Assembly: GCF_020405225.1 (NCBI RefSeq)
Contig: NZ_CP084474.1
Span: 62,001-126,000, forward strand
Source: Natrinema sp. DC36
Lineage (GTDB): Archaea > Halobacteriota > Halobacteria > Halobacteriales > Natrialbaceae
Reading direction: 5' to 3'
DNA: 64,000 nt
Notes under the pieces: model-generated
What the model was told of the DNA's origin: nothing
Database searches by the model: none
Seen by the model: the letters and a program-made list of their open reading frames with translations, nothing else
Shown here: positions 12,385 through 59,765 of the stretch, in pieces
How positions within the stretch are numbered: position 1 is the stretch's first letter
Layout: each line of letters starts with the position of its first letter
Made by a program: the position numbers and the translations under genes

Positions 12385-12390
12385 GAGAAA

Positions 12391-12398
12391 CAATTAAG
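12391..12398 (+). promoter_or_regulatory. TATA element of the BadH-like gene
   Basis: CAATTAAG lies about 27 bases before the ATG at 12422, supporting a separate leaderless transcript. Confidence 0.4.
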
Positions 12399-12421
12399 TC
12401 GCCGCCCTCGTATTTTCCACT

Positions 12422-29327: not shown

Positions 29328-29861
29328 ATGAGCGGGGAGATTGAGGGTATAGACGCAGACGAACTGCGAGCGCTCGTCCTAGAGCGCAACGTTCGTAACT
29401 TCTTCAAGCGGGAGGCTGACCTCCTCGACGAACGGAAGCTTGATGCATGGTTCGAACTAATCGACGACGACATCCGATACCAGATGTCTCGTCGACTGAT
29501 GAAGGAGTACGAACCGTCCGAATTTGACGAAGAGGGATATTTCTTCAACGAGGATTACGGCTCGCTCAAGGCCCGGGTCGAACGGTTCGACTCGAGTTAC
29601 GCCTGGGCGGAGCGGCCACCGGCGCGTACTCGCCGATACGTCACGAACGTCGCGCTCGAGGACTGGACCGACGAGGACGTCTCCGTGACGAGTAACGTCC
29701 TCCTCTACTACAGTCAGGGCGATACGACCGACTACTCGTTACTATCGATCCGGCGTGAAGACACACTGAAGCGTACCGAGGACGGATTTTCGATCACGGA
29801 TCGGACGATCCTACCGGACCACAACACGCTGGGTATCAGTAAAATATCGACGTTTCTATGA
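29328..29861 (+). CDS. Aromatic ring-hydroxylating dioxygenase, beta (small) subunit
   Basis: A 177-residue protein of the SnoaL/NTF2-like beta-subunit family. The pattern NFFKREADLLDERKLDAWFE, then DDDIRYQMSRR, RVERFDSSYAWAERPPARTR and the late FSITDRTILPDHNT is typical. The beta subunit has no cofactor and stabilises the alpha3beta3 hexamer. Its ATG directly abuts the alpha stop, and its stop overlaps the next gene by four bases, so the three are tightly co-translated. A decayed fragment of a second beta gene lies at 31776-31862. Confidence 0.93.
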   Translation: MSGEIEGIDADELRALVLERNVRNFFKREADLLDERKLDAWFELIDDDIRYQMSRRLMKEYEPSEFDEEGYFFNEDYGSLKARVERFDSSYAWAERPPARTRRYVTNVALEDWTDEDVSVTSNVLLYYSQGDTTDYSLLSIRREDTLKRTEDGFSITDRTILPDHNTLGISKISTFL

Positions 29862-39779: not shown

Positions 39780-40547
39780 ATGAAAGAGAACGGGAATTCA
39801 GGTCGGTCAATCAAATCAAACGAGACTCTGTTCGCTATCATCGAATCACTGAAGGAGGGCGATGGTGCGGGCGTCACCGAACTCGCCGATCGCCTCGATC
39901 TCGCGAAGAGCACCGTCCACAAGCACCTCGTGAGCTTAGAGCGGAACCGCTACGTCGTCAACGAGGACGGCCGCTATCGACTCGGACTCGAGTTCTTCAA
40001 CACCGGCGTCTACGTGCGTAACCAGTACGATATCTACCACGTCGCGAAGGATCGCATCGACAGGTTGGCCGAGGAGACCGACGAAGCGGCGTGGCTCATC
40101 GTTCCGGAGAACGGTCTCGGAATGTTCGTCTACGGTGTCCCACGAAACAAGTCGTTCTCGTTCGATTCGATGATCGGGACCTGGGTCTACCTCCATGCGA
40201 ATTCAGCCGGTAAGGCGATTTTGGCTCATCTCTCCGACGAAGAAATTCAGCAGGTTATTGATCGCCACGGTCTGCCGGCCCAGACAGAGCACACGATCAC
40301 CGGTAGGGAGGAACTGTTCGCCGAACTTGAGGACGTCCGCGAGCGCGGCTACGCGATGAACTTGCAGGAGGACCTTCGGGGACTGCATGCGATCGCGACG
40401 CCGGTCATCTGCAACGAGCGACCGATCGCCGCCGTCACGATCGCTGGCGCTGCGAACCGCTTGACCGAAGAGCAAATAGAGGACGAGTTGTACGGCTCGC
40501 TCCTTGAGGCTGTCGACGATATTGAACTTCGCCTCGTCTACGGATAG
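39780..40547 (+). CDS. IclR-family transcriptional regulator (4)
   Basis: A 255-residue IclR regulator (ATG 39780, MKENGNSGRSIKSNETLF). The helix-turn-helix is GVTELADRLDLAKSTVHKHLVSL. The effector domain has EAAWLIVPENGLGMFVYGVP, LHANSAGKAILAHLSDEE, LRGLHAIATPVICNERPI and AVTIAGAANRLTEE. It is the nearest regulator to the CoA ligase and gentisate genes downstream. Operator candidates flank it on both sides (site C at 39457, site D at 40585). Confidence 0.93.
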   Translation: MKENGNSGRSIKSNETLFAIIESLKEGDGAGVTELADRLDLAKSTVHKHLVSLERNRYVVNEDGRYRLGLEFFNTGVYVRNQYDIYHVAKDRIDRLAEETDEAAWLIVPENGLGMFVYGVPRNKSFSFDSMIGTWVYLHANSAGKAILAHLSDEEIQQVIDRHGLPAQTEHTITGREELFAELEDVRERGYAMNLQEDLRGLHAIATPVICNERPIAAVTIAGAANRLTEEQIEDELYGSLLEAVDDIELRLVYG

Positions 40548-41521: not shown

Positions 41522-43075
41522 ATGAATTTCATCGAGACCTTCCACCGTACCGTTCGACGGTACTCGTCGGATACGGCGATCATCTTCGACGATGGGTGGT
41601 CGTTGACCTACCGGGAACTCGACGACCGTACCACCCGTCTCGCGAACGCCCTGAACGACCGAGCGGGCGATCGTCGGGCGGCGACGCTGGCGGTCAACGG
41701 CCCGACAGCCATTGAGATGATGATCGCGAGCCAGAAGCGTGGGATTGGCAACGTCCAGTTGCCGTTTCGCGACAGCCTCAGCGGACTCAGATCGATGCTC
41801 GAGCCCACCGATACGGCAACCCTCGTCTTCGACGACGCCAACGCTGAGAAGGCCCTCGATGTTTTAGATCACACAGATATCGAGTACGGCATTCACGCTG
41901 GAAAGACGTCAATTGATCGTGATGATGTCGAGTCGTATGACGTTGTCCTCTCGGACGCGTCAATCGGCGAGGTCGAGCCGTATCAGGACTACGAACACGG
42001 CGTCTTCTACACTAGCGGGACGACGAGCGCGCCGAAAGCGGTGCTGTTCGATCAGGAGAAGCTCTGGCACGGCAGCACGCAGGCAATCATGGAGATGGGT
42101 ATCGAAGAGACTGACACGGCGCTAGTGACGACACCGTGGTATCACATGATGACCTGTGACGCCTGGATCCTGCCCCACATTCAGGCCGGTGCGACGCTGG
42201 TCGTGCAGTCGGACTTCGATCCTGACGAGACGCTTCGGCTCGCAGCGGACCACGACGCGACGGGGCTGTTGGCCGTGCCGACGCAGCTGCACGCGCTGGC
42301 CGATCGCCAAGCAGAAGCCGAGTACGACATCGACGCCCTCTCGTACATCCGGATAGGCGGCTCGATCGTCACAGAGGGACTCGTCGAGAAGGCATCCGAG
42401 CACCTTACCGAGGGCGTCTACAATACCTACGGGCTGACCGAAGGCGGACCGAACCTGACGTTCGCACACCCCTCTGTTCAGGACGAACACGCAGGGATGA
42501 TCGGAAAGGAGTCGTTCGTATCAGAGGTCCGCGTCGTCGAAGCGGCCGACCCAGACGAGGTTCCAGATCCGGAGGCGACAGTCGACCCCGGCGAGACGGG
42601 CGAAGTAATCGCTCGTGGGCCCGGCACCTGTGATGGCTACATGGACCGTCCGGAGGAGACCGAGTGGCTGATTATCGACGACGAGTGGATCCGGACGGGC
42701 GACGTCGCCGAAGTCAACGAAGACGGCTACCTGTACATCACCGGCCGCGTCGACAACATGTTCGTCTGCGGTGGCGAGAACATCTACCCCGAGGAGGTCG
42801 AGGAAGTCGTTGAGACCCACGAGGACGTCGACGAGGTCGTCGTCGTCGGCGTCGAGGATGAGAAATGGGGCCACCAAGTGGCCTGCGTCGTTTGTCCCGA
42901 CGCAGACGATCTCACAGAGGACGAACTGGACGAGTTCTGCAAGGATCACGACCAACTGCCGAACTTCAAGCGCCCCCGCGAGTACGTGCTGACGAAAGAG
43001 AAGTTACCGCGGACCGACACGGGAACCGTCCAGCGGGAGACGGTCCAGACCGAATTCTTCGCCGAGGCCGAGTAG
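41522..43075 (+). CDS. Acyl/aryl-CoA ligase (AMP-forming), probable 4-hydroxybenzoate-CoA ligase
   Basis: A 517-residue class I adenylate-forming enzyme. Motifs: GVFYTSGTTSAPKAVLFDQE (A3), NTYGLTEGGPN (A5), WIRTGDVAEVNEDGYLYITG (A7-A8) with FVCGGENIYPEEVEEV, and the catalytic Lys-region PRTDTGTVQRETVQ, in which Thr stands at the usual TGKxxR Lys position, a point to verify. The gene opens the block containing gentisate dioxygenase, a flavin monooxygenase and a 4HBT thioesterase, so an aromatic acid such as 4-hydroxybenzoate, benzoate or 3-hydroxybenzoate is the probable substrate. A fatty-acid ligase cannot be excluded from the sequence alone. Confidence 0.88.
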   Translation: MNFIETFHRTVRRYSSDTAIIFDDGWSLTYRELDDRTTRLANALNDRAGDRRAATLAVNGPTAIEMMIASQKRGIGNVQLPFRDSLSGLRSMLEPTDTATLVFDDANAEKALDVLDHTDIEYGIHAGKTSIDRDDVESYDVVLSDASIGEVEPYQDYEHGVFYTSGTTSAPKAVLFDQEKLWHGSTQAIMEMGIEETDTALVTTPWYHMMTCDAWILPHIQAGATLVVQSDFDPDETLRLAADHDATGLLAVPTQLHALADRQAEAEYDIDALSYIRIGGSIVTEGLVEKASEHLTEGVYNTYGLTEGGPNLTFAHPSVQDEHAGMIGKESFVSEVRVVEAADPDEVPDPEATVDPGETGEVIARGPGTCDGYMDRPEETEWLIIDDEWIRTGDVAEVNEDGYLYITGRVDNMFVCGGENIYPEEVEEVVETHEDVDEVVVVGVEDEKWGHQVACVVCPDADDLTEDELDEFCKDHDQLPNFKRPREYVLTKEKLPRTDTGTVQRETVQTEFFAEAE

Positions 43076-43422
43076 ACCGTTTTCGAGCGGGGAGGTCTCG
43101 GACGGTGTTTTGATCCCCTCCGAAATCGAACGACCGATATACACCGAACTACTGCCGAGAGTGTACGATATTACGGGCCAGGACGACGGCGACGCTAGCT
43201 ACCACACGTTCCTCGTCGAACAATTACACCCCCTCAATCTTCGAACGATCTCACTGGGATGGGTTTCGAACGTGTTCGACCCAGCGATATCGCGATCGTT
43301 GGGGCCACCGATACGCCGGCAGTAGCGCTCAACGTACTCGTCTCGCTCGAGGACTGAGAAACCGAGAGACCGACCGAGAATGGAATCGAAAGCCTTGGGC
43401 CGAGACCGGTATTCGGTACCCG
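43076..43422. other. Convergent intergenic region
   Basis: 347 bases between convergent genes. A short plus-strand frame ends in DIAIVGATDTPAVALNVLV and a stop near 43358; it has no start and no recognised family, and may be a gene scrap. Confidence 0.3.
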
Positions 43423-44301
43423 TTATTCGCCCTTCTGACTCTTCTGGACGTCGATGTCCTCGAAGGCGACGTCACGCTCGGTGACGTCGACAGTCATCGC
43501 GCCGACGCCCTCGATCTCGGCGTCGATGGTGTCGCCGTCCGAGAGCGGGCTGACCCCCTCCGGCGTCCCCGTGGTGATGACGTCGCCGGCCTCGATGGTC
43601 GCGCCGATCGAGGCGTACTCGACGATGTCGGCGCAGCTGTAGATCATACCGCCGGTGTTCTGCTGCTGCTTGGTCTCGCCGTTGAGCTGCAGTTCCATTT
43701 CGAGGTCGTGGGGGTCATCGAACTCGTCGGCGGTCGTGACGCAGGGACCGATGATCGTGAACGTGTCGTAGGACTTGCGGTTCGAGCGGTCCTGGTCGCC
43801 GCGGACGGAGACGTCGAGCAGGATCGTGTAGCCCAGGACCGCATCCCAGACGTCGTCGGCGTCGATGTCCTTGACGTCCTCGCCCATGACGAACGCCAGT
43901 TCGATCTCGTGGTCGACACGGCGGTCGTTGAACGGCAGTTCGATGCCGTCCTCGGGGCCGGCGACGCTCGAGGGGGCCTTGAGGAAGTAGCCCTTGTCCT
44001 CGATGGTGAACCACTCCTCAGTGACGATGTCCTTGTCAGCGAGGGCTTCCTCGACGTGGTTCTCGTAGTTCAGCGGCGCGGCGATGACCTTGCCGGGTCG
44101 GCGTACCGGGGATTCGATGGTGATCTCCTCGCGGTCGTAGTCGGGCTCTTCGTCCTCGTACTCGCTGGCGTCGTAGTCCTTTCGGGCGTACTCCTTGAGC
44201 GGATCGTTCGTCTCGAGGCCGAGTTCGTCGGTCACGTCGATGATGCTGTTGTCGTCGGTCAGTAGGCCGAGCCGATCGTCGTTGAATCTAACGAGTCGCA
44301 T
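43423..44301 (-). CDS. Fumarylacetoacetate hydrolase-family protein, probable fumaryl-/maleylpyruvate hydrolase
   Basis: A 292-residue FAH-family hydrolase starting at 44301 (MRLVRFNDDRLGLL). Core landmarks: GKVIAAPLNYENHVEEA, FLKAPSSVAGPEDGIELP, VDHEIELAFVMGEDVKDI (with the metal-binding Glu-x-Glu), VRGDQDRSNRKSYDTFTIIG and AGDVITTGTPEGVSPL. In gentisate catabolism this family splits fumarylpyruvate, or maleylpyruvate directly, into pyruvate and fumarate or maleate. No maleylpyruvate isomerase gene is visible nearby, so direct maleylpyruvate hydrolysis followed by the maleate isomerase at 23.9 kb is a coherent alternative (inference). Confidence 0.9.
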   Translation of the reverse strand: MRLVRFNDDRLGLLTDDNSIIDVTDELGLETNDPLKEYARKDYDASEYEDEEPDYDREEITIESPVRRPGKVIAAPLNYENHVEEALADKDIVTEEWFTIEDKGYFLKAPSSVAGPEDGIELPFNDRRVDHEIELAFVMGEDVKDIDADDVWDAVLGYTILLDVSVRGDQDRSNRKSYDTFTIIGPCVTTADEFDDPHDLEMELQLNGETKQQQNTGGMIYSCADIVEYASIGATIEAGDVITTGTPEGVSPLSDGDTIDAEIEGVGAMTVDVTERDVAFEDIDVQKSQKGE

Positions 44302-44470
44302 GGTAGATACACTGCGATCCGTCCACATAAATCATCCTCTCTCGTTCCCGTCCGTTCGAAAAATGATGATGTACTTTGACCGGAGTTCGACGTTTCGATA
44401 ATCTCGTCACACGTCTCGTGTTTGCTTCCCTTTCCCGTGGCGGTCCGGGAGCGGACTGCCGACTCGTTCG

Positions 44471-44653
44471 TCAGCCGTCAGCGGCGATCTGATCGTCGAA
44501 GACGTCGTTCGAATCGAAGATGCTGCGACAGTCCTCACACACCATCTGGCCGTCGATCGCGTACTCCCACAGTTTGCCGCCGCAATCCAGACAGTCGAAG
44601 TGCGCCCGAACGAACGGGTCGTGCTCCGCGTACGGATTCTCGAACTCTGCCAT
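44471..44653 (-). CDS. Small zinc-ribbon protein (HVO_A0556-like)
   Basis: A 60-residue acidic protein from the ATG at 44653 (MAEFENPYAEHDPFVRAHF) with two CxxC knuckles, CLDCGGKLWEY and MVCEDCRSIFD, the layout of a zinc ribbon. It matches small haloarchaeal zinc-finger proteins that often occur inside aromatic or CoA-ester gene clusters. It lies between the FAH hydrolase and gentisate dioxygenase on the same strand. Its role is unknown; nucleic acid binding or an Fe/Zn-delivery role are possibilities. Confidence 0.75.
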   Translation of the reverse strand: MAEFENPYAEHDPFVRAHFDCLDCGGKLWEYAIDGQMVCEDCRSIFDSNDVFDDQIAADG

Positions 44654-44813
44654 ACAGACAGGGTACGGTCGCCGACCAATAAAGTATTCCCCATGTTGAC
44701 GGGTGCCGGTTCGGTGCGGCGAGTTCGGGCTGTCGAGAACGAGTACAGAAGTGAGAGTGAAAACGGGAGAGCGCACGACCGCGATGTACGATCGCTTCGA
44801 AGCGAAGACGGGG

Positions 44814-45899
44814 TTATTCGTCGGGCGCCGATTCGGCGTAGAAGTTGAACGCCTCGAACACCGGTCGATCGGTCATGCCCAGCAGGATCGCTTCCTCGCC
44901 GTCCGGCTCGTGGCTGTGGAGTTCGTTTGGAGGGACCACGAAGATATCCCACTGTCCCCACTCGAGAGTCTCGTCGCCGACGTGCGTGGCGCCCTCTCCT
45001 TCGATGACGAAGTAGACCTCCGTGGCGTTGTGGAAGTGCGTCTCAGTCGCTTCTTGCAATAACTGCGCCCGGAACGACATCGTCGGGAACAGCGGCGGCT
45101 GGCCGTTCGTCGGGTTGACGTAGGCCATGCTGTAGCCGTCGTAGGGGTCGGGCGTGTTGTTGTCCGCGCGCTGGCGCAGCGTCCGGATGGTCTCCTCCCA
45201 ACTGAAGCGGTGTGGGGGAGTCGGGTCGCGGATCCCATCGAACGGCCCGGGGATACCGTCGCTTTTGCTCTCATCGGCGGGGCGACCCTGTCCGAACTGA
45301 GAGTCCCAGTAGCCCTGCGTCTTGGAGACGGGCTGACGCTCGAGCTCGTGGTTCTCGAAGACGTTCGAGGCGTTCAGCGAGTCGAGGACCAGCGGCAGAT
45401 CCAGTACGTCGAGCCACATCGCCGTCTCGTCGGAGTCGTTGACATGGTCGTGCCACTCCCATTGGGGCGTCGTGATGAGGTCATTGTTCTCCATCGGGAA
45501 CTCCTCGCCCGCGACGACAGTCTTCATGTCCTCGTGGCCGTCGATGGTAAAGCGCAGGGCGTTGGCGCCGTGACGGTGAGACGGTGCTGTCTCACCGGGC
45601 GAGACGGTCTGCACACCGACGTAGATCGTGTTCGAGATGGCATTGTCCATCCCGGTGTTGATCGGCACCGCGACCCGGCGCTGGAACCCTGGCGGGAGTT
45701 CCTCGATAGGCATGTCCTCCTCGACGTTGTCGATCGCCCGCTTGATGTCGTCCCACTTCCAGATATCCGCCTGGAGATTGTCGTAGACGTTCCCCATCGT
45801 GTTCTCGACCTCCCAGAGGGGACGGAGGTCGTTCTCCTCGAGGATCTCTCGGGTCTCCGAAGTCAGTTCTATGCGCTCTTCGGGGTCTTGCTGTGCCAT
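44814..45899 (-). CDS. Gentisate 1,2-dioxygenase
   Basis: A 361-residue bicupin iron dioxygenase, start at 45899 (MAQQDPEERIEL) in preference to an ATG nine codons earlier. The catalytic N-terminal cupin has His108 and His110 in PSHRHGANALRFTIDG and His150 in PQWEWHDHVND, the Fe(II) ligands of gentisate dioxygenases. The second cupin shows ETHFHNATEVYFVIEG and WGQWDIFVVPPNELHSHE. It opens gentisate (2,5-dihydroxybenzoate) between C1 and C2 to maleylpyruvate. It is the central enzyme of this block; the FAH hydrolase downstream on the same strand takes its product. Confidence 0.95.
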   Translation of the reverse strand: MAQQDPEERIELTSETREILEENDLRPLWEVENTMGNVYDNLQADIWKWDDIKRAIDNVEEDMPIEELPPGFQRRVAVPINTGMDNAISNTIYVGVQTVSPGETAPSHRHGANALRFTIDGHEDMKTVVAGEEFPMENNDLITTPQWEWHDHVNDSDETAMWLDVLDLPLVLDSLNASNVFENHELERQPVSKTQGYWDSQFGQGRPADESKSDGIPGPFDGIRDPTPPHRFSWEETIRTLRQRADNNTPDPYDGYSMAYVNPTNGQPPLFPTMSFRAQLLQEATETHFHNATEVYFVIEGEGATHVGDETLEWGQWDIFVVPPNELHSHEPDGEEAILLGMTDRPVFEAFNFYAESAPDE

Positions 45900-46054
45900 A
45901 GTAGCTAATTCCGGAAGAATCGACATAAGTGTGTTGGAGAATCCTGCGGGAGTGACATCGTTCAGGAAGGGGACCGAATATGTCCGCTGTCACAACTGTG
46001 CCCGCCCTCGCACGAGAGACGGTCACCGACTGTCGGGCCGTCTAAAGCCCGATA

Positions 46055-46963
46055 CTACAGGAACCGGTCGGTCCGCGTCGTCTCGTAGCCGTCGGCGATC
46101 GAATCGAACACCTCGTTGACCGCGTCGACCGTCCAGCCGTCCTCGGCGACGCCGGTCCGAATCTGCCGCGGTTCCGAGAGGATCCCAATCTCGTCGCCCG
46201 CTGCGGTCACAGTGACGCCCGTGACGTCGGCGGCGGCCTCGCTCAACAGATAGACTGCAGCAGGCGCGACGTTCTCGGGTGGCAGTTCCTCGCGCGTGTA
46301 CGGCCGGTGCTCTTCCGGAATCGTCTCGGTCATCCGCGTGTAGCCGTTCGGAACGAGCGCGTTGACCCGGACGTCCTGGCGGTGCAATTCCGTCGAGGCC
46401 GAGCGGACGAAGCCGAGGACGCCCGCGTTCGCGCTCGCGTACGCGAGTTGCCCGACGTTACCCAGCGCCCCTCTGGAACTGACTGCAAGGAAGGATCGGT
46501 CGTCTGCCGCATCTGTGCCATCGGCCTCGCTCTCGTCCCCGTTATCGACCGAGCTCCAGTGGCGGACGGCACTGCGCAACAGCGTGAAGTTGCTCCGGAG
46601 GTGGCTCTGCATCACGGCGTCCCAGTCCTCCTCGGACAGCGACCAGGACATTCCGTCCCGGAGGATTCCCGCGAAGTTGGCAACGCCGTCCAGTCGGCCG
46701 AACGACTCGAGGGTCGTCTTGACGGCTGCCTCGGCGTCCTCGGCGTCGGCGGCGTCACCGAAGTGGGCGACCGCCGAGGCGTCCTCGATCTCGCCGATCT
46801 TGGCGGCGATCTCGCGGGCTGGCTGTGGATCTGACCCGGTGCCGTCGACGGCGGTCCCTAAATCGGAGACGACGACGTTCGCACCCTCGCGGGCGAGTTC
46901 TCTCGCGGTCGCCGCGCCGAGTCCGTTGGCACCGCCGATGACGAGGTATGCAGGGTCGGTCAC
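46055..46963 (-). CDS. Short-chain dehydrogenase/reductase, (R)-hydroxyacyl-CoA dehydrogenase-like
   Basis: A 302-residue SDR from the GTG at 46963 (VTDPAYLVIGGANGLGAATA). The long Arg/Ser-rich upstream frame to 47110 is unlike haloarchaeal coding sequence and rejected. Cofactor motif GGANGLGA is unusual in having GGANGLG instead of TGxxxGxG. The long insertion before Ala-Val-Ser-Ser-Arg-Gly and the Tyr/Lys pair (GQLAYASANAG; position +4 is Asn, so the Lys is missing) set it apart from classical members. It resembles the dehydrogenase unit of peroxisomal multifunctional enzyme type 2. It lies beside gentisate dioxygenase, but a step for it in that pathway is not obvious. Confidence 0.75.
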   Translation of the reverse strand: MTDPAYLVIGGANGLGAATARELAREGANVVVSDLGTAVDGTGSDPQPAREIAAKIGEIEDASAVAHFGDAADAEDAEAAVKTTLESFGRLDGVANFAGILRDGMSWSLSEEDWDAVMQSHLRSNFTLLRSAVRHWSSVDNGDESEADGTDAADDRSFLAVSSRGALGNVGQLAYASANAGVLGFVRSASTELHRQDVRVNALVPNGYTRMTETIPEEHRPYTREELPPENVAPAAVYLLSEAAADVTGVTVTAAGDEIGILSEPRQIRTGVAEDGWTVDAVNEVFDSIADGYETTRTDRFL

Positions 46964-47297
46964 GCGAACCACCCTTCCGTCGCTCCGTCCGCTCTCTTTT
47001 CGTCGTCGAGTACTGTCCGCTCGCGCTCGCGTGCTCGCACGGTCGCTTGGCAACTCTCGCTCGTGGGCATGAATGGAATCATCGCTTGATACGCAGTCCC
47101 CGATATTCATGGTTCGGAATCGGCGAATCTAGAACCGCCACCAGCACGAGGCCGCGATCGAAATCCCTCGTAATCACGATCTTTCTTCTCAAGGAGAAGG
47201 AGCGAGATCGGACGGCCGTCTCCGATTGGAATCATTTCAGCTCCAGAGGTGAACGAAAGGGGATGGATTTAGGTGACCACGCTACAAAAATGAGTGT

Positions 47298-47621
47298 ATG
47301 GTACTCGAACGAGACCTCGAAGCAGTGACAGCCGAACAGGACGACCTTCCGGATGTCGACGCGATGTACGACAAGTGTGAGGAAATCGCTATCACTGACG
47401 TGCTCGACCGTGAGTTCGTCACCGAACGGACCGACTTCGAAACCTTCGATGAACTGGTGTCCGAGAGCCCCAGCGAGGCTGGTTCCGCCGCGGAACTTGA
47501 GACGATCCCCCACGGCGAGTGGGACGAGTTCGTTGCTGAACGGACCGACTTCGACGACGAGGAGGCATTCGTCTTGGCCGCCCGCGACCACTGGGTCGCC
47601 AAGCGACTGGACCTGACCTGA
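47298..47621 (+). CDS. Acidic hypothetical protein with repeated motif
   Basis: A 107-residue, very acidic protein (ATG 47298, MVLERDLEAVTAEQDDLPDV). I do not recognise a family. Two similar segments are visible, LDREFVTERTDFETFDEL and WDEFVAERTDFDDEEAF, suggesting an internal duplication. A CxxE-type Cys occurs only once. It stands alone on the plus strand between the minus-strand SDR and monooxygenase genes. Confidence 0.55.
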   Translation: MVLERDLEAVTAEQDDLPDVDAMYDKCEEIAITDVLDREFVTERTDFETFDELVSESPSEAGSAAELETIPHGEWDEFVAERTDFDDEEAFVLAARDHWVAKRLDLT

Positions 47622-47789
47622 ATCGGTCCCTTTCTGCGATCGTTTTTCGCTACTCCACCGTACGGCGCTACGTCGAGACGCGTCGCTCACGGCGCATCGA
47701 CGTCCGCTACTAGTCGCTGCTGAGAGCGAGCAAGAGGCCGCCACGTAGCGGTGACGGTTTGAATGCGAAAACGAGAACGAGTCGGTCGT

Positions 47790-49025
47790 TCAGTAGTTAC
47801 CGGTCGAGACGATCGGCGGTGACCCATGGGGGCCGTACGGTGCGTCGTCGAGCCACTCACCGGCGGTCTCGAATTTGTCGGCCATCGAGGCGGCCACCTC
47901 TTTCCGGAGGACGGTCACCGGATCGTCGCCCTGGAGGTACTCGAGAGCCTGTCCGGCCGCGCCGAGGTTGTATTCGGCGGCTTTCTCACGACGTGCTGCG
48001 TACAGTTCGACCTCATCGCGGGCGACCGCGTCCGTGCGGGCGTCGAGTGCAACAGAGATGGCGGAAGCGGCCTCGTCAGCGTCGGCGATACCGGAGTTCA
48101 TCCCGCGAGCGCCGAAGGGCGCCAACAGGTGTGCGGCTTCGCCGGCCAGCAGGACGCGGCGGTGGTCGTCGACGAAGGTGTCCGCCATCACCTGAAGGAA
48201 GTGATAGGTGGAGACCCACTTCAACTTGTCCGCGTACTCCTCGCCCATGATGTCGCGGACGAACTCGCGCATCCGCTCGTCGCTGCTGAGTTCCTCGGGA
48301 TCGTCGCCATCGATACACTGGATGTCGAGCCGCCAGCCGCCGGTGAAGGGAACAAGCAACACGTTCCGTCCGTCGGCTTCGGGCGCGTCGTAGTGGAACA
48401 TCCGCTCTAGGTCCGGATGGCCGTCGTCGATATCCTTATCTTCGACGTCGGCGATAATAAAGGCGTTCTCGGACTGGTCGCCCTCGAAGTTGGCGCCGAT
48501 CTCCTTGCGGACCGTCGAGCCGCCGCCGTCCGCGCCGATCAGGTGCTCGGTCTCCCACTCGCGGCCGTCGTCGGTCTCGACGGTGACGCCGTCCGGCGAG
48601 GAGTCGACCGAGACGACCTCCGACCCCCAGTGGATGTCGATACCGACCTCTTCCAGCGCCTCGAGCATGTACTGCTCGGTCACGACCTGCGGAACGCTGG
48701 TGAAGTGGGGGATGTCGCCGCTACCGCCTGGCGAGTCGTACGTCCGGTTGAACACTTCCTTACCCTTGTAGAGGGTTCGCCGGGTCGGCCAGACAAGCCC
48801 TTCCTCGACGAGATCGGCACCCAGTCCCGGACGGATCCGCTCGAGGGTCCGAAGCGTCGAGCCGTGGACGTAGATGGCCCGGCTCCCCGATCGATCGCGG
48901 TCCTCGGGATCCGCCTCGAGGACCGTAGTCTCGATTCCCCGTGCGTGCAGTGCGAGCGCAGTTGTCATGCCAACTGGTCCGGCACCGGCAACCAGTACCG
49001 GTACGTCGGTCGTATCATCGCTCAT
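47790..49025 (-). CDS. Class A flavin-dependent aromatic monooxygenase, candidate 4-hydroxybenzoyl-CoA 1-hydroxylase
   Basis: A 411-residue p-hydroxybenzoate-hydroxylase-fold enzyme. FAD site: LVAGAGPVGMTTALALHARG at residues 10-29 with ETTVLEADP closing the fold, the DG motif HLIGADGGGSTVRKEIG, and the second FAD motif LLAGEAAHLLAPFGARGMNS. The usual GDAAH is GEAAH here, so the ribityl-contacting Asp is Glu. Family members hydroxylate aromatic acids or their CoA esters with NAD(P)H and O2. Located between gentisate dioxygenase and a Gate-domain transporter, its product should be gentisate or gentisyl-CoA. 3-Hydroxybenzoate or salicylate hydroxylase activity is the alternative. Confidence 0.88.
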   Translation of the reverse strand: MSDDTTDVPVLVAGAGPVGMTTALALHARGIETTVLEADPEDRDRSGSRAIYVHGSTLRTLERIRPGLGADLVEEGLVWPTRRTLYKGKEVFNRTYDSPGGSGDIPHFTSVPQVVTEQYMLEALEEVGIDIHWGSEVVSVDSSPDGVTVETDDGREWETEHLIGADGGGSTVRKEIGANFEGDQSENAFIIADVEDKDIDDGHPDLERMFHYDAPEADGRNVLLVPFTGGWRLDIQCIDGDDPEELSSDERMREFVRDIMGEEYADKLKWVSTYHFLQVMADTFVDDHRRVLLAGEAAHLLAPFGARGMNSGIADADEAASAISVALDARTDAVARDEVELYAARREKAAEYNLGAAGQALEYLQGDDPVTVLRKEVAASMADKFETAGEWLDDAPYGPHGSPPIVSTGNY

Positions 49026-49271
49026 GGTTCACAGTGACGTAGCACTCACCCATAGTGTTTATGGTGTCCACTAATAGCCCTCTATGATGTTACGATTGTC
49101 GATAGTAAGAGAAGAAGGATTACAGTGAACATCATAGCACCGCTCGGCGGCTCGAGACCGCAGGAACTGTCGGACGAACTACCGCGGCGTCAGACGATAT
49201 CGAAGAGCGGTCGCGCAGATCGGAACCAGAGTCTGGCGAGAACCGTGGACGGTGATCGACGACCTGTCGGC

Positions 49272-50732
49272 TCAGATGAGGCCGACGGCGGCAGCACCGT
49301 GGGTCAGCGCGGCCGCGATGGGAACGAGCAGCGCAGTCCGGAGGATCAGGAGGACCGTGAGATCGCGGAAGCGCATAGGAACGTCGTCGAACATGTCGAC
49401 CATCATTGGGACCGATGCGGCGAAGAAGAGCGCCTGCGCGCTTGTGACGATCACGACGAACACTTTCGTCGTGAGGCTCGTGCCGACGACGACTGTCGCG
49501 CCCACGAAGTACTCGCCGGCGCCGGCGAGGACCGCAATCGCGGCCATCTCGGGGTCCGGGATACCGAGGATCGTCATCAACGGAACGAACGGCGCAGCGA
49601 GAAGTTCGAAGAAGTCGGTGTATGCCTCGAGCAGGAGGACGGTCGTCGCGATCGTCATGATGGTGCCGAGGATCGTCGCGGTGAGTTTCGTCCCGTCGAC
49701 GAACCCGTTGGTCGCCGCTCGCGGGATCGATTCGCCTTCGTCTGCCGTTTTAACGCCTTCATTGAAGGCGAATCGAAAGTAGTCGGTCACAGTACCGGTG
49801 AACTGCGGTTCCGGATCTGGTTCCGCGATGTACTCCTCAGGAACCGTCGAGAGCGGCGGGACGCGGACAAGGATCGCTGCGACGATGAGCGTCGCGATCA
49901 CGTACAGCGCGATGACGATCGGGAAGATATGTAGAATCTCAAGGATGGCGGCGACCGCCCCGACGCTCCCGAGGTTCGCGGTCGCGAAGCAGGTGCAGAT
50001 CGCGAACACTTCGCGCTTGTTGTAGCCGCCGCGGTCGAAGACGTTGCGGGTGAGGTAGTAGCCGATGCTGAACGAGCCGAGCCACGATGCCGCGCTGTCC
50101 AGAGCTGACCGTCCTGGCAGGTTGAACAGCGGCCGCATGATCGGCTGGGCGAGCGTGCCGATGAACTCGAGACCACCGAGTTCGGCCAGCAGGTTAACGA
50201 AGATACCGCCGACCGGAATCACGAGCACGATCGTAAGCATGAGGACGTCCCAGGAGGTGCCCGCGATCGCGTCGCTAAGCAGCCAGTCGGGCCCGACGCC
50301 GAAGAACATCGAGAGCCCGAGTGGGATCGCGATCACGCGGAACGCCCAGAACGGTTTCGACGTCTGCCAGTACTCGGGCTGGATGAGATCCCGTGCGCGT
50401 TCGCTTAGCGCGATCACGTCCTGATAGTACAACACAGACACCGTCGTCATGACCGCCCCGGTGAACAGCACGAATAGGACGAACAGTTCGACGGCGAGCA
50501 GCGCCGTCGACTCGATGTACGACAGTAGTACGTCGAGCGGAATCGTTGTCTGTCCTTGGTATTGGACGGGGAAGAGAAAGAAGAACGCCCCGGTCGTGAA
50601 CGCGAAGAGGAACTTGAGCGTCGGTCGCAACCGTTTCTCGACCAAGTTCACGTCATTGATCGACTTCTTATCGGGAGACACGGATTCACCCGATATGTGA
50701 TCGTCATCTTCCCAGCTCTGACCACCGAACAT
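49272..50732 (-). CDS. Nucleoside-recognition (Gate) domain membrane protein, YjiH-like (copy 2)
   Basis: A 486-residue membrane protein, start at 50732 (MFGGQSWEDDDHISGESV) by alignment with copy 1 (MFDSQSWEDDDHVSG). The Gate block VNLLAELGGLEFIGTLAQP, SAASWLGSFSIGYYLTRNVF, DRGGYNKREVFAICTCF and the second half PMMVDMFDDVPMRFRDLTVL are nearly identical to copy 1, while N-terminal helices 1-4 are more divergent. The gene sits between the aromatic monooxygenase and a universal stress protein gene, in the same direction as the gentisate genes. It is a candidate importer of an aromatic acid (inference). Confidence 0.82.
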   Translation of the reverse strand: MFGGQSWEDDDHISGESVSPDKKSINDVNLVEKRLRPTLKFLFAFTTGAFFFLFPVQYQGQTTIPLDVLLSYIESTALLAVELFVLFVLFTGAVMTTVSVLYYQDVIALSERARDLIQPEYWQTSKPFWAFRVIAIPLGLSMFFGVGPDWLLSDAIAGTSWDVLMLTIVLVIPVGGIFVNLLAELGGLEFIGTLAQPIMRPLFNLPGRSALDSAASWLGSFSIGYYLTRNVFDRGGYNKREVFAICTCFATANLGSVGAVAAILEILHIFPIVIALYVIATLIVAAILVRVPPLSTVPEEYIAEPDPEPQFTGTVTDYFRFAFNEGVKTADEGESIPRAATNGFVDGTKLTATILGTIMTIATTVLLLEAYTDFFELLAAPFVPLMTILGIPDPEMAAIAVLAGAGEYFVGATVVVGTSLTTKVFVVIVTSAQALFFAASVPMMVDMFDDVPMRFRDLTVLLILRTALLVPIAAALTHGAAAVGLI

Positions 50733-51012
50733 AGTTCGATAAATCGTACCATGTGTCATAAAAACACCGATCATATGTCGCAATACGTATTATTATAACA
50801 ATAACCACATACATTATATTTCTATTTTAGAAGTGGAAAATACTGGCTGATGCCGATCGAGAGCAGTGAAACTACGATCGGAGTTCTACTGCCGGTGTCT
50901 GCAACGGCTAGGACAAATTCGACTGTGTGGTAGCGACGGTAGAACAGTGCGGCGAATGCTGCGGTCGTCGACCGTGCAGTCGCAACCGGCTTCGCCGTCT
51001 TCTGGACTGTGG
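50733..51012. other. Intergenic region upstream of the Gate-domain gene
   Basis: 280 bases without a gene. The strongly AT-rich part 50780-50830 should hold the promoter for the Gate-domain gene on the minus strand. Confidence 0.3.
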
Positions 51013-51405
51013 TTACTCGGTCGTGCTCAGCAGCACCGTCTGATCGGACCTCAGGATCACGTCCTGCGTGACGCTCCCGAACAGCGCCTTCCCGGTCGGT
51101 GATCGCTTCCGGCCAGCCAGGCTGATCACGTTGGCGTCGAGCTCCGCGGCCTGGTTCAGAATGTTCCGGACGGCGTCGCCGCTCGACTGCGCGACTTCGA
51201 CGGTAAAACCCGCCTCCTCGAGCCGCTCGCTCGCTTCCGAGACCGATTTCAAGTTCTCGGCGTCGGCGTTCTCGCCGTCGGCCCGGAAGACGTGATAGAG
51301 CACGATACGCACCTGATCAGTCTCTAGCGGGAGCTCGGTTACCGATTTGACCTGTTCGACCGCCCGTTCGATATCCGTGTCGATGCAGAGTAGGATCGTT
51401 TTCAT
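51013..51405 (-). CDS. Universal stress protein (UspA family)
   Basis: A 130-residue UspA-domain protein: MKTILLCIDTDIERAVEQV at the N-terminal strand and the C-terminal ATP-binding loop GRKRSPTGKALFGS followed by VTQDVILRSDQTVLL. The Gly-x2-Gly-x9-Gly-Ser pattern is present in slightly altered form, so nucleotide binding is likely. It lies downstream in the gentisate-side cluster, probably as a stress or energy sensor. Confidence 0.9.
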   Translation of the reverse strand: MKTILLCIDTDIERAVEQVKSVTELPLETDQVRIVLYHVFRADGENADAENLKSVSEASERLEEAGFTVEVAQSSGDAVRNILNQAAELDANVISLAGRKRSPTGKALFGSVTQDVILRSDQTVLLSTTE

Positions 51406-51564
51406 GGGAATTACTCTCGAGTGCTCGGCGACGGAACCGTTCGCTGCCGTCGACCACTCGGATCGTCGTGTAACCGTTACATCAGTTCACAACATTATAG
51501 TACTTGTTATCACGAGCCATTGCGGCAGCGTGGTCAGACCCGCCGAACAGCAGATCGATCGCGT

Positions 51565-51822
51565 GACCATGAACTCGTGAACCGGACCGTCGAGGGAATC
51601 CTGCTCTCATTGACCTACTGTATGCTCTGTAACGCGCCGACCTTGTCCAACCGACGCGACACCAACACGTTCGTCGACGGCGAGGGCGAGCGCTGGACGA
51701 TCACTTGCGATGCGCTCGAACGCGAGAGCGACAGGCGAGAACTGACCCGTGTCTCGAGGTGCCACGGTCTGTTCTTCGCGTTCCGCTCCTAGTACGAGAC
51801 CGTCGAAATCGGACCGAACTGA
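51565..51822 (+). pseudogene. DUF3179 protein remnant with internal deletion
   Basis: The plus-strand reading HELVNRTVEGILLSLTYCML, then CNAPTL, matches the start of the DUF3179 core (HEIVND...LVTYCPLCGS). It then jumps directly to RVSRCHGLFFAFRS, then a stop, then YETVEIGPN and a second stop, matching the family's C-terminus. About 200 central residues are missing. It is dead. Confidence 0.45.
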
Positions 51823-51825
51823 GCG

Positions 51826-52221
51826 TTAGATGCTCTCGAGCGCTTCCCGCAAATCGTCGGGAACTTCGACGCCGCTGTCGCCATCCATCGGTACGCAGAC
51901 ACGGTGTTCGGTCCCTTCAAAGACGACATCGCCGTCGTGGCTCGCCCGGTAGTTGAACTGGACGCTCGATTCCCCGACGGTTGCGTCCAGTTCGATCTCA
52001 ACGTCGTCGCCGCCACGGACCTGACCCGTGAAATCGAAGTCCATCGAGACGAGCGGAAGGCCGAGGCCGTGTCGCTCGTGGAGTTCCCAGTAGGGCCAGC
52101 CGATCTCCTCCATAAGTATGTCAGACGTCTCGTGGACCGCGTCGATCATCCGCGGGTAGTGGGCGATACCGAACGGATCGGTGTCCGAGAACCGGACGGT
52201 CCAGGTGCGTGTGAAACTCAT
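51826..52221 (-). CDS. 4HBT hot-dog thioesterase, candidate gentisyl-CoA thioesterase
   Basis: A 131-residue thioesterase of the 4-hydroxybenzoyl-CoA thioesterase group, start at 52221 (MSFTRTWTVRFSDTD). The catalytic Asp15 lies in SDTDPFGIAHYPRMIDAVHE, the diagnostic segment of Pseudomonas-type 4HBT enzymes. The remaining strands (PLVSMDFDFTGQVRGGDDVE, SSVQFNYRASHDGDVVFEG) complete a single hot-dog domain. In this cluster it can release gentisate, or another hydroxybenzoate, from its CoA ester, which together with the CoA ligase and flavin monooxygenase completes a CoA-based hydroxylation route. Confidence 0.88.
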   Translation of the reverse strand: MSFTRTWTVRFSDTDPFGIAHYPRMIDAVHETSDILMEEIGWPYWELHERHGLGLPLVSMDFDFTGQVRGGDDVEIELDATVGESSVQFNYRASHDGDVVFEGTEHRVCVPMDGDSGVEVPDDLREALESI

Positions 52222-52554: not shown

Positions 52555-55500
52555 ATGACTGCGAGTCCTAACACCTCTCTCGACGTCGACGCACCGAACG
52601 CCGACGAGCGGGCGGAGTACGACTACGTCTCCGACGACGTCGAGCGACCGGATCTGGTCGCTGCTCTCCGCGAGCGGATCGACGGCGACGTCCGGTTCGA
52701 TACCTATACTCGACAGCTGTATGCGACCGACGCGAGCGCCTACGAGGAGACGCCGATTGGCGTCGTCTTCCCGACGTCGACCGAAGACGTCGCGAGCGTC
52801 GTCTCCTACTGCGCCGACCGCGAGATTCCGGTCCTCCCGCGGGGCGGCGGGACGAGCCTCGCCGGCCAGGCGGTCAACGAGGCCGTCGTTCTCGACTTCA
52901 GCCGTCACATGGACGGGATCGTCTCCGTCGACGCCGACGCCCGACGTGCCCACGTCCAATCGGGCGTCATCCTCGAGGAACTCAACGACGCGCTGGCCCC
53001 CCACGGGCTGAAGTTTGCGCCGGACCCCGCCGCCGGCAATCGCAGTGTTATCGGCGGCGCGATCGGGAACAACTCGACGGGTGCCCATTCGCTGAAGTAC
53101 GGGAAGACTGACGCCTATATCGAGGAATGCGAGGTCGTACTGGCCGACGGCACCGTCGCAACTCTCGGCAAGGTCGACATCGATGAACTACGCGAACGGG
53201 CGGATCCGAAGGGCGACCTCCTCGAGCGCATCTCCCACAAGGTCGTCCGAATCATCGACGAGAAAGCCGACGAAGTCCGCGAGCGGTTCCCTGACCTGAA
53301 GCGCAACGTCTCCGGGTACAACCTCGATATGCTCGTCGAAGAGGCTGAGACCGGAACCGTCAATCTCGGCCGGTTGCTGGCCGGCAGCGAAGGGACCCTA
53401 GCCGTCGTGACGGAGGCTGAGGTCTCCCTCGAGCCCGTTCCCGAGACGAAAGCGGTCTCCCTGCTGTTCTACGAGAGCGTCCTCGAGGCCGTCACGGACG
53501 TCCAACACGTCTTAGAGTACGACCCCGCGGCGGTCGAACTCATCGACGACGTGCTCATCGGACTGGCCCGCGAGACCGCGGAGTTCGAGGAGATCGCGGC
53601 GCTGGTTCCCAATAATGCACAGGCGGCGCTGCTCGTCGAGTTCTACGCCGATGACGACGATCACGGCCGGGAACGGACCGCCGGGCTCCTCGCCGATCGC
53701 GTGCCCGGCAGCGACAGCGAGGCGACGCCGTCCACCAAGCACCCCGCCGTCGACGAGGCCCACGCCTTCGAGGGACTCGAGGCGCATGCGGACGCCGAAC
53801 GCGAGAAGTTCTGGAAGCTCCGCAAGGCGGGGCTGCCGATCCTGCTCTCGCGGACCTCCGACGAGAAGCACATCAGCTTCATGGAGGACTGTGCCATCCC
53901 GCCGGAACACCTCCCCGAGTTCGTCGAGCGGTTCCAGTCGCTGCTCGTCGAGAAGGACCGCGACGTCGACGCGGCCTTCTACGCGCACGCCGGGCCGGGC
54001 GTCCTCCATGTTCGCCCGCTGGTAAACACGAAGGCCACCGAGGACCGCGAAGACATGGTCGAGATCGCCGACGAAGTAACGGACATGGTCGTCGAATTCG
54101 GCGGTTCCGTCTCCGGCGAGCACGGTGACGGACGCGCCCGGACCCAGTGGAACAGGAAGCTCTATGGCGAGGAGCTCTGGCAGACATTCCGCGATCTGAA
54201 GACGGCATTTGATCCCGATTGGCTACTGAACCCTGGGAACATCTGTGGTGACCACGACATGACGGAAAACCTCCGGTACGACGACGAATACGCGTACGAC
54301 GCCGGATTTGAGCCGTCGCTGAACTGGGACAACGAAAACGGCATGCAGGGGATGGTCGAGCTCTGTCACGGCTGTGGCGGCTGTCGGGGCGAACAGGAGA
54401 CCACGGGCGGTGTGATGTGTCCGACCTACCGCGCCGCCGACGAGGAGATCACGGCCACGCGGGGCCGCGCAAACCTCCTTCGGCAGGCCATGAGCGGCGA
54501 CCTCCCCGGCGATCCCACCGACGACGAATTCGCCGAAGAGGTACTCGACCTCTGTATCGGCTGTAAGGGCTGTGCACGGGACTGTCCGAGCGAGGTCGAC
54601 ATGGCGAAGCTCAAAACAGAGATCATGCACGCCCGCCATCAGGAACATGGCTCGAGCCTTCGGGACAAGCTCTTCGCCAATTTCGACCGGTTGGCACCGC
54701 TGGGCAGCGCGCTGGCCCCCCTCTCGAATCTCGTGCAATCGCTCCCGGGAGCCGGAACGATCACCGAGAAGACCGTCGGCATCGCTCACGAGCGGTCGCT
54801 GCCTGAGTTCCACCGCGAGACAGTTCAAGGCTGGTTCGAGTCGCGTGGCGGCTCCCACATTCCCGAGTCCGAGGCCGAGCGAAAGGCCGTCTTCTTCGCG
54901 GACACTTACACTAACTACAGCCATCCCGCAGTCGGGAAGGCAACGGTCCGCGTCCTCGAGGCCGCCGGAGTTCACGTCAACGTCGCCAAGCGAACCGACA
55001 GCGGGCGCCCGGCGCTGTCGAAGGGTTTCGTCGATAAGTCTCGCGAGACGATGCGGGCGAACGTCGCCGAACTCGCGCCCCGCGTCGACGAGGGCTGGGA
55101 CGTCGTTCTCGCGGAGCCGTCGGACGCGGTGATGTTCCAATCCGACGCGCTCGATCTGCTCGGCGGGACTGGCGTCGAGTCCGTCGCGGCTAACGCCTAC
55201 GGCGTCTGCGAGTATCTCGACGCGTTCCGCCTTGACGAGAACGTCGACTGGGCGGCCCCGTCGGAGTCGGTGGCCTACCACGGCCACTGTCACCAGAAGG
55301 CGACGAAGAAGGACCACCACGCCGTCGGTATCCTCCGCCGCGCGGGCTACGCCGTCGATCCGCTTGACTCGGGCTGCTGTGGTATGGCCGGCAGCTTTGG
55401 CTACGAGGCCGAGCACTACTCGCTGAGCCAATCGATCGGTGACATCTTAGTCGACCAGATCGACGACAGCGACGCGACCGTCGTTACCGCACCAGGGACC

Positions 55501-55632
55501 TCCTGTCGCACCCAACTCGGCGACAAGCGTCTCGATCCGACTCCCTCGGAGAGTTCGCTCGCCGACAGCGAGCTCGACGGCGAGGAGCCGCCGACGCCGG
55601 TCGAACTACTGGCGTACGCGCTCTCGCGATAA
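52555..55632 (+). CDS. Fused FAD/4Fe-4S D-lactate or glycolate dehydrogenase (GlcD-GlcF-like)
   Basis: A 1025-residue fusion. Residues about 50-240: VAO/PCMH-type FAD domain (PRGGGTSLAGQAVNEAVV, GGAIGNNSTGAHSLKYGK). About 250-540: FAD-oxidase C-terminal domain (VSGEHGDGRARTQW near the end). About 600-690: two 4Fe-4S motifs (CHGCGGC ... VMCPTYR and CIGCKGCARDCPSEVD). About 760-1000: two CCG-type cysteine-rich segments (HGHCHQKATKK, SGCCGMAGSFGYEAEH). It oxidises a 2-hydroxyacid such as D-lactate or glycolate and passes electrons to the membrane quinone or another acceptor. Fusions of this length are common in haloarchaea. It could recover 2-hydroxyacids formed in aromatic catabolism, but this is open. 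Confidence 0.9.
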   Translation: MTASPNTSLDVDAPNADERAEYDYVSDDVERPDLVAALRERIDGDVRFDTYTRQLYATDASAYEETPIGVVFPTSTEDVASVVSYCADREIPVLPRGGGTSLAGQAVNEAVVLDFSRHMDGIVSVDADARRAHVQSGVILEELNDALAPHGLKFAPDPAAGNRSVIGGAIGNNSTGAHSLKYGKTDAYIEECEVVLADGTVATLGKVDIDELRERADPKGDLLERISHKVVRIIDEKADEVRERFPDLKRNVSGYNLDMLVEEAETGTVNLGRLLAGSEGTLAVVTEAEVSLEPVPETKAVSLLFYESVLEAVTDVQHVLEYDPAAVELIDDVLIGLARETAEFEEIAALVPNNAQAALLVEFYADDDDHGRERTAGLLADRVPGSDSEATPSTKHPAVDEAHAFEGLEAHADAEREKFWKLRKAGLPILLSRTSDEKHISFMEDCAIPPEHLPEFVERFQSLLVEKDRDVDAAFYAHAGPGVLHVRPLVNTKATEDREDMVEIADEVTDMVVEFGGSVSGEHGDGRARTQWNRKLYGEELWQTFRDLKTAFDPDWLLNPGNICGDHDMTENLRYDDEYAYDAGFEPSLNWDNENGMQGMVELCHGCGGCRGEQETTGGVMCPTYRAADEEITATRGRANLLRQAMSGDLPGDPTDDEFAEEVLDLCIGCKGCARDCPSEVDMAKLKTEIMHARHQEHGSSLRDKLFANFDRLAPLGSALAPLSNLVQSLPGAGTITEKTVGIAHERSLPEFHRETVQGWFESRGGSHIPESEAERKAVFFADTYTNYSHPAVGKATVRVLEAAGVHVNVAKRTDSGRPALSKGFVDKSRETMRANVAELAPRVDEGWDVVLAEPSDAVMFQSDALDLLGGTGVESVAANAYGVCEYLDAFRLDENVDWAAPSESVAYHGHCHQKATKKDHHAVGILRRAGYAVDPLDSGCCGMAGSFGYEAEHYSLSQSIGDILVDQIDDSDATVVTAPGTSCRTQLGDKRLDPTPSESSLADSELDGEEPPTPVELLAYALSR

Positions 55633-56645: not shown

Positions 56646-57980
56646 ATGGGAGTAACCGACTTCTTCGATCCGGACGGAATCGCCGTCATCGGCGCATCGA
56701 AAACGCCTGGAAAACTTGGGAACGACACGATGACCAATATTCGGACCTACAACGGCGAGGTCTATCCAGTCAACCCCTCCAGCGATGGGAGCGTCTACGG
56801 CTACGAGTTCGTCGACTCGGTCCGCGACGTTGACGCCGATCTGGCACTGTGTTGTGTGCCTAGCCCCGTCGTTCCGGAGGTCTTAGAAGAGTGCGGCGAA
56901 GCGGGTGTCGGCGCTGCGGTGATCTTCGCCGGCGGCTTCGCGGAGGTCAACGAGGACGGACGAGAGCGCGAGGACGAGATCGTTCGTATCGGAGAGGAGT
57001 ACGACATGACCATTCTCGGGCCGAACACGGCGGGCTATTGCATCCCGCATCTGGACCTCTACGGGTCGTTCGTCCCGGAAATCCGTGACGTCGAGATGGG
57101 GAACGTCGCCCTCCTCGCCCAGAGCGGCGGCGTCGGAATTACCTCTGCGTTCCAACTGGACCGCGAGGAGTACGGCGTGTCGGCGATGTTTGGGCTTGGG
57201 AATCGGGCGAACACCGGGTTCGCCGAACTCATTCCGGTCCTCGACGACGATCCGCGGACTGACGTGATCGCGCTTCACATAGAGGGCACCAAAGACGTCG
57301 ACGCGTTCCTCGAGGCCTGCCGCGAGGCGAAGACACCGATCGTCGCCTACAAGGCCGGGAGCAAGTCACTAAGTGACTTCGTCGCGTCGCACACTGGCGC
57401 GCCAAACCAGTCTCGGGAGCGCTACGAAGACGCCCTCACCGGCGAGGGCGTCGTCTTCGTCTCGTCGGTGACCGAACTCATCGATGCCAGCCGCGCGATC
57501 GCGGACACGCCGAACCCGGCTGGGCGGAATGTCGGTCTCGTCACGGCTCAGGCCGGTCCGGGGATCATCATCGCCGATGAACTCGACGAGCGGGGCGCCG
57601 AGTTCCCCGACCTCGAAGACGAGACTCAGGAGCGCGTCGACGACCTTTTGCAGGGGATCACCTACACGGAGAACCCGGTCGACACAGGTCGACCGTTGCC
57701 CGAGTTCGGACAGATAATCGATGCTGTTGCCCGCGACGACAACGTTGACATCGTCATCGTCTACGAGATCTACGAGGACTCGTTGGGCTATCCGATCGAG
57801 GAACTGGAGACGCTCGCCGACGAACTCGAGAAGCCGATCCTCTTCACGGTCGCCGGCCCAGACAGTTTCGAAAAGGAACGGTTGCAGATGGAGGCGGCCG
57901 GGATTCCGACCTTCCAAGCGCCGGAGCGTGGGTCCAACGTGGTTGCGGCGTTGATTGACTCGATCCCCGATGACGCATAG
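56646..57980 (+). CDS. ADP-forming acetyl/acyl-CoA synthetase, alpha subunit (CoA-binding)
   Basis: A 444-residue protein of the succinyl-CoA-synthetase superfamily. N-terminal CoA-binding domain: FFDPDGIAVIGASKTPGKLG. Ligase-CoA domain: NVALLAQSGGVGITSAFQLD. Phosphohistidine region: VASHTGAPNQSRERYEDAL, with the His near residue 249. ATP is made from an acyl-CoA, ADP and Pi, or used in reverse. The beta (ATP-grasp) subunit is not in the window after or before this gene, so it must be encoded elsewhere or this protein acts otherwise. The final product of catabolic CoA esters is a natural substrate. Confidence 0.85.
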   Translation: MGVTDFFDPDGIAVIGASKTPGKLGNDTMTNIRTYNGEVYPVNPSSDGSVYGYEFVDSVRDVDADLALCCVPSPVVPEVLEECGEAGVGAAVIFAGGFAEVNEDGREREDEIVRIGEEYDMTILGPNTAGYCIPHLDLYGSFVPEIRDVEMGNVALLAQSGGVGITSAFQLDREEYGVSAMFGLGNRANTGFAELIPVLDDDPRTDVIALHIEGTKDVDAFLEACREAKTPIVAYKAGSKSLSDFVASHTGAPNQSRERYEDALTGEGVVFVSSVTELIDASRAIADTPNPAGRNVGLVTAQAGPGIIIADELDERGAEFPDLEDETQERVDDLLQGITYTENPVDTGRPLPEFGQIIDAVARDDNVDIVIVYEIYEDSLGYPIEELETLADELEKPILFTVAGPDSFEKERLQMEAAGIPTFQAPERGSNVVAALIDSIPDDA

Positions 57981-59569: not shown

Positions 59570-59765
59570 CGTTTCGTAAGTACGGTCACGTAATTTGGGG
59601 TTAAATCTATTGAGATATCCACATCTGTCTTCGGTCCGCGATGGCCATGGGGCCGCAGCGATCCAGCGGTCGGGCGCCGTCTCTGTCTCAGTGTCCACCT
59701 CCGGCCCGACTAGACTGTTTCGACTCGGTGTGCAAATAGTTATTACGCGTTTTCGTGGGGGATCG

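Follow-up and report, generated by a model that had tools for sequence, protein, structure and literature searches.

A candidate gene set for CoA-dependent conversion of 4-hydroxybenzoate to gentisate in the haloarchaeon Natrinema sp. DC36

The window analysed here, a 64-kb stretch of Natrinema sp. DC36 DNA, lies on a 334-kb contig of a 5.1-Mb haloarchaeal genome and carries a set of genes that, on balance, probably encodes a CoA-dependent pathway from 4-hydroxybenzoate through gentisate to central metabolism. The set as a whole is a strong candidate for this role, with its substrate unproven. A CoA-thioester route to gentisate, as proposed in the preliminary description, is well supported by the gene content, by linkage, by the natural replacement of the hydroxylase with a salicylyl-CoA-hydroxylase-like protein in a congener and by the loss of a carboxylate clamp from the hydroxylase itself; the 4-hydroxy substrate and the migration that were part of the same proposal are the best fit, on indirect evidence. 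The genes for the five proposed enzymes, all found at or near the places where they had been put and with family matches far above chance, are as follows.

41522-43075, forward strand: candidate AMP-forming aryl-CoA ligase (LIG; PF00501, AMP-binding, 7e-50)
43423-44328, reverse strand: FAH-family hydrolase, candidate maleyl-/fumarylpyruvate hydrolase, which recurs with the dioxygenase (FAH; PF01557, FAA_hydrolase, 4e-53)
44814-45926, reverse strand: bicupin gentisate 1,2-dioxygenase (GDO; matches to TIGR02272, NF049978 and PDB 2d40)
47790-49025, reverse strand: single-domain class A FAD monooxygenase of 411 residues, candidate 4-hydroxybenzoyl-CoA ipso-hydroxylase (FMO; PF01494, FAD_binding_3, 4e-46)
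51826-52221, reverse strand: 4HBT-family thioesterase, candidate gentisyl-CoA thioesterase (TE; PF13279, 4HBT_2, 7e-11)

In the favoured pathway 4-hydroxybenzoyl-CoA would be formed by LIG, which in other species would be joined or replaced in this role by an ADP-forming acyl-CoA synthetase. FMO would hydroxylate the ester at C1, the ipso position para to the phenol hydroxyl. The CoA-thioester group would then move from C1 to C2 to yield gentisyl-CoA, from which the 4HBT-type TE would free gentisate. GDO would convert gentisate to maleylpyruvate, to be split by the FAH-family hydrolase on the way to central metabolism. The breakdown of 4-hydroxybenzoate in Haloarcula sp. D1 is reported to pass through gentisate and to involve an NIH shift (Fairley 2002; PMC4005966, PMC10815724), and a ligase, a hydroxylase and a thioesterase are reported to carry out the conversion of 4-hydroxybenzoate to gentisate in a bacterium (Zhao 2018; PMC7862547, PMC10983741). 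No paper naming genes for the archaeal carboxyl-group NIH shift was found in the literature searched. The set described here would assign genes to the reaction seen in Haloarcula sp. D1, and offers a small, expressible list of candidates for this archaeal chemistry, described in 2002. In its enzyme types it resembles PhgABC of Brevibacillus laterosporus PHB-7a, with a linked aryl-CoA ligase, class A FMO hydroxylase and 4HBT-type thioesterase feeding cleavage by a gentisate dioxygenase. It differs in being archaeal, in its location on the 334-kb replicon, in its shuffled gene order and in that an ADP-forming acyl-CoA synthetase is an optional member.

FMO, an SDR oxidoreductase, GDO and FAH are co-directional (49025 down to 43423) with LIG on the opposite strand, and TE, a universal stress protein (Usp) and a Gate-domain transporter lie upstream of FMO on its strand. 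This neighbourhood is a real unit, FMO, GDO, LIG and TE both co-occurring and co-localising across haloarchaea. Among 292 haloarchaeal genomes FMO is carried by 46, GDO by 45, TE by 41 and LIG by 38, and FMO shares 44 of its genomes with GDO, 40 with TE and 37 with LIG (Fisher values from 1e-37 to 1e-48, uncorrected for phylogeny). GDO and LIG are no more than 20 kb apart in 36 of the 37 genomes that have both, as are GDO and TE in 36 of 41. The distribution is patchy within genera, with FMO in two and GDO in three of the sampled species of Natrinema, the genus of the window, so common ancestry by itself is insufficient to account for the co-occurrence. When the 46 FMO loci are compared identical genes are seen in many differing orders, which argues for functional linkage rather than plain conserved synteny. 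FMO is present as a single copy in the window's genome and GDO is the sole gene of its kind there; nearly every gentisate dioxygenase of this type in the sampled haloarchaea is accompanied by the module.

A natural swap on a plasmid of Natrinema salinisoli bears on what the individual enzymes do. There GDO, FAH, TE, a CoA-binding/synthetase pair and an FAD/FeS D-2-hydroxyacid dehydrogenase-like protein (DLD) are kept, and FMO and LIG are replaced, the former by a 699-residue SdgC-like protein (L168:16604-18703; 562 bits on NF006101 over model positions 1-717 of 768, under the cut-off) and the latter by a 2,3-dihydroxybenzoate-AMP-ligase-like protein. Only one sampled genome has GDO and TE yet lacks FMO, and it corresponds to this species. 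The simplest reading would be that a common module deals with gentisyl-CoA and gentisate, and that hydroxylase and ligase are exchanged along with the substrate. Because the swap keeps GDO, FAH and TE but replaces FMO, TE probably acts on gentisyl-CoA and FMO on an aryl-CoA other than salicylyl-CoA. The SdgC family (NF006101) resembles the proposed route in that a CoA thioester is hydroxylated to gentisyl-CoA, and in N. salinisoli its representative stands alongside the same GDO/FAH/TE module. That FMO is itself a salicylyl-CoA 5-hydroxylase, in a set that degrades salicylate, would give the same class of chemistry and the same product as the known SdgC pathway (PMC13215587), but we rejected it as highly improbable. 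FMO falls outside the SdgC family, whose members are two-domain proteins of about 770 residues with which it has no significant similarity (only chance-level BLAST matches to the SdgC-like protein), and the congener has that SdgC-like protein in the place of FMO.

The gene set strongly suggests that the substrate of FMO is a CoA ester. PobA, the 4-hydroxybenzoate 3-hydroxylase, has the same fold and length as FMO and acts on para-hydroxybenzoate, but the residues of its carboxylate clamp, Ser212, Arg214 and Tyr222, are Leu, Pro and Asp in FMO when aligned with PobA sequences by MAFFT, and an hhalign comparison likewise lacks the Arg at position 214. Loss of the clamp is as expected of a thioester substrate. 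A search of the window's genome found neither an intradiol dioxygenase nor a further strong PF01494 (class A FMO) protein, so no PobA/protocatechuate route is visible, and with the clamp missing this candidate was rejected. It could still be supposed that FMO uses a free hydroxybenzoic acid, with LIG and TE serving another branch, such as hydroxycinnamate side-chain degradation, and adjoining it through a shared aromatic-catabolism island. Other ligases and a Rieske dioxygenase do make the window a catabolic island, and LIG is without the A10 lysine (see below). We nevertheless regard this as unlikely, as the clamp for the free acid is lost and, across many genera, FMO and GDO are tightly co-inherited with TE and a ligase or synthetase. 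Gentisate clusters with a 3-hydroxybenzoate 6-hydroxylase (3HB6H; NF006021) are like the window in that a class A FMO adjoins GDO and an FAH hydrolase, but the known enzyme uses the free acid, and the cluster examined, from Streptomyces atratus, shows neither ligase nor thioesterase and has an FMO that barely matches the one described here. Sequence similarity between FMO and a 3HB6H-type protein is negligible (E=0.02 over 35 residues), and NF006021 is not among the 25 best of the 70 NCBIfam matches of FMO.

The AlphaFold model of FMO (pLDDT 89) matches PnpA, PobA and HspB almost equally well, with Z scores of 35.8, 35.1 and 34.3, so that the fold search, with all three within 1.5, does not tell para enzymes apart from meta or ortho ones. 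3HB6H was not among the 50 fold matches listed, which excludes nothing. Like FMO, PnpA and HspB are single-domain class A enzymes, and both attack ring carbons that are already substituted; they differ from it in their substrates, p-nitrophenol and a pyridine, and are only 22-24% identical to it. Judged from such a model, the fold by itself is no proof of function.

The actinobacterial sister proteins of FMO give a further indication. In the tree FMO and 12 actinobacterial proteins form one clade with a support of 100/100, on a long branch apart from the PRK08132-like enzymes, the sister proteins in Streptomyces having 44-48% identity to the haloarchaeal enzyme. Eight of the 12 actinobacterial genes, from Streptomyces and Saccharothrix, stand in an operon in which pabB is followed by a benzoate/4-hydroxybenzoate-CoA-ligase-like gene, an AMP-binding protein gene, FMO and a pabC-like gene (loci L032, L087, L089-L093 and L098). 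This context points to a para-substituted benzoyl thioester, with a p-aminobenzoyl thioester as the likely natural substrate; hydroxylation of the latter para to the amino group would mean ipso attack at the acyl-bearing carbon. No locus from Bacillota was among the best 80 retained from the scan of genome contigs. We tentatively suggest that FMO may represent a family, as yet without a name, of ipso-hydroxylases that act on para-substituted benzoyl-CoA with an acyl shift, possibly comprising an archaeal catabolic branch (4-hydroxybenzoyl-CoA to gentisyl-CoA) and, in Streptomyces, one for biosynthesis (4-aminobenzoyl-CoA to 5-aminosalicyl-CoA). Such a reading predicts a reaction for the Streptomyces biosynthetic FMO, the hydroxylation of a p-aminobenzoyl thioester.

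The same operons could be taken to mean that the haloarchaeal enzyme, too, acts on 4-aminobenzoyl-CoA to give 5-aminosalicyl-CoA, with the ring-cleavage enzyme being a 5-aminosalicylate dioxygenase. GDO does score slightly higher on the model for that enzyme (NF049978, 215 bits) than on the gentisate model (208 bits), but both scores are far under the curated cut-offs, that of NF049978 being 650. As the haloarchaeal clusters showed no p-aminobenzoate gene and haloarchaea are documented to grow on 4-hydroxybenzoate by way of gentisate, this seems decidedly unlikely.

4-Hydroxybenzoyl-CoA, hydroxylated with acyl migration, is thus our best guess for the substrate of FMO, based on the sister operons, the relatives of LIG, the loss of the clamp, the genes missing for a PobA route and the NIH shift reported for Haloarcula sp. 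D1. Its main rival is 3-hydroxybenzoyl-CoA. Were FMO a 3-hydroxybenzoyl-CoA 6-hydroxylase, 3-hydroxybenzoate, or benzoate by way of benzoyl-CoA and 3-hydroxybenzoyl-CoA, would lead to gentisyl-CoA without migration, the product and the three enzyme types being the same. Haloferax sp. D1227 uses gentisate as an intermediate in growth on benzoate, 3-hydroxybenzoate and phenylpropionate (PMC4005966), and in a few species Paa-type CoA-epoxidase-like genes, a possible benzoyl-CoA-type feeder, adjoin FMO. These genes are rare, however, being found at three of the 46 FMO loci, and the context of the sister clade is para-substituted. Among solved structures LIG is also nearer to ligases of para-substituted acids, its closest relatives by profile being feruloyl-CoA synthetase (8weu/8wev) and 4-chlorobenzoate-CoA ligase. 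We therefore consider 3-hydroxybenzoyl-CoA a somewhat unlikely substrate.

Activation of the acid could be achieved in more than one way across the haloarchaea. LIG has a P-loop of the TSGTT..PK type, YTSGTTSAPKAV, with an invariant Lys. The beta subunit of an ADP-forming acyl-CoA synthetase is present in 39 of the 46 FMO genomes, and the synthetase pair is often directly beside TE (for example at L171:4198-6317). All 44 genomes with FMO and GDO carry LIG, this beta subunit or both, and the beta subunit is found in all seven of those that are without LIG and in three of the four that are without a close TE. The synthetase may form the aryl-CoA or may free gentisate from gentisyl-CoA with recovery of ATP.

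At the gentisate end, TE belongs to the hotdog family and has the catalytic Asp characteristic of 4HBT class I. This residue is held in an invariant SDxDP..IAHYPR segment corresponding to the [CT]DPxGI motif of the class, and is kept in 15 relatives. The start of TE was placed at the ATG at 52221, preferred over an upstream GTG by the family alignment. TE is likened, by fold and context and not by direct alignment, to BH1999, the gentisyl-CoA thioesterase of Bacillus halodurans (PMC516016), which is also a 4HBT-fold protein in a gentisate cluster with the catalytic Asp conserved, although the second catalytic residue of BH1999 is without a clear match in TE. GDO is a full-length bicupin homologue of solved gentisate dioxygenases (2d40, E=2e-46; 3bu7, E=2e-39). 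A maleylpyruvate isomerase was not noticed among the genes of the cluster, where no family-level search for one was made. At 23850-24617 the window has an Asp/Glu-racemase-family protein, a candidate maleate isomerase, that is 83% identical to one adjoining GDO in Haladaptatus salinisoli. FAH, DLD and this protein would be compatible with a route via maleate or D-malate, in which the possible role of DLD is D-malate oxidation.

Several observations weigh against the pathway as proposed. LIG has Thr at the position of the A10 catalytic Lys (LPRTDTGTVQR), and in the ANL superfamily of adenylate-forming enzymes this lysine is required for adenylation. The Thr is common to about two-thirds of the haloarchaeal LIG orthologues, with Lys in the remaining orthologues and in the paralogues examined. 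The beta subunit of the module's synthetase is absent from the window's genome at the threshold used for the other genomes, the best relative having 40% identity. With Thr at A10 and the ADP-forming alternative absent, the activation step in this genome is not secure. The score of GDO on TIGR02272 is far below the cut-off of 442 bits, two FMO genomes are without GDO, and the salicylate-type swap was observed only once. Finally the para-aminobenzoate FMOs of Streptomyces, at 44-48% identity, may have another regiochemistry.

The genes that flank or intersperse these five in the window are listed below.

39780-40547, forward strand: IclR-family regulator, divergent neighbour of the set (PF01614/PF09339)
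46055-47110, reverse strand: SDR oxidoreductase (PF13561/PF00106)
49272-50783, reverse strand: Gate-domain membrane protein, candidate transporter of the set, which recurs near FMO (PF07670)
51013-51405, reverse strand: Usp, a frequent neighbour (PF00582)
52555-55632, forward strand: DLD (PF02913/PF01565/CCG; YdiJ-like, 532 bits, under the cut-off)
56646-57980, forward strand: CoA-binding protein resembling the alpha subunit of an ADP-forming acyl-CoA synthetase, without an adjacent beta subunit (PF13607/PF13380)
58169-59698, reverse strand: SLC13-type permease, a frequent neighbour (homologues near FMO are annotated as SLC13 family permeases)

An IclR gene is near FMO in most relatives when neighbourhoods are compared, and PcaR/PobR-type models match the one in the window with scores under the cut-off. 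DLD recurs with the gentisate module, the salicylate-type module included. A homologue of the SDR oxidoreductase with 71-78% identity adjoins FMO in two other genomes; the best model for this protein, PRK07791, aligns from residue 56, and the real start is probably internal to the called open reading frame. In many relatives a UbiA-family prenyltransferase adjoins the ligase and IclR genes (L034, L036, L044, L054, L060, L068-L075 and L171); none was seen in the window. Elsewhere in the window a two-subunit Rieske ring-hydroxylating dioxygenase (27972-29861), with naphthalene dioxygenase (2b1x) and phthalate 3,4-dioxygenase as its nearest solved relatives, has an Amidohydro_2 protein, an IclR regulator and a Gate transporter close by. 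At 6827-13189 an enoyl-CoA hydratase, an acyl-CoA dehydrogenase, an AMP ligase and a BadH-like dehydrogenase make up a second cluster for acyl-CoA catabolism.

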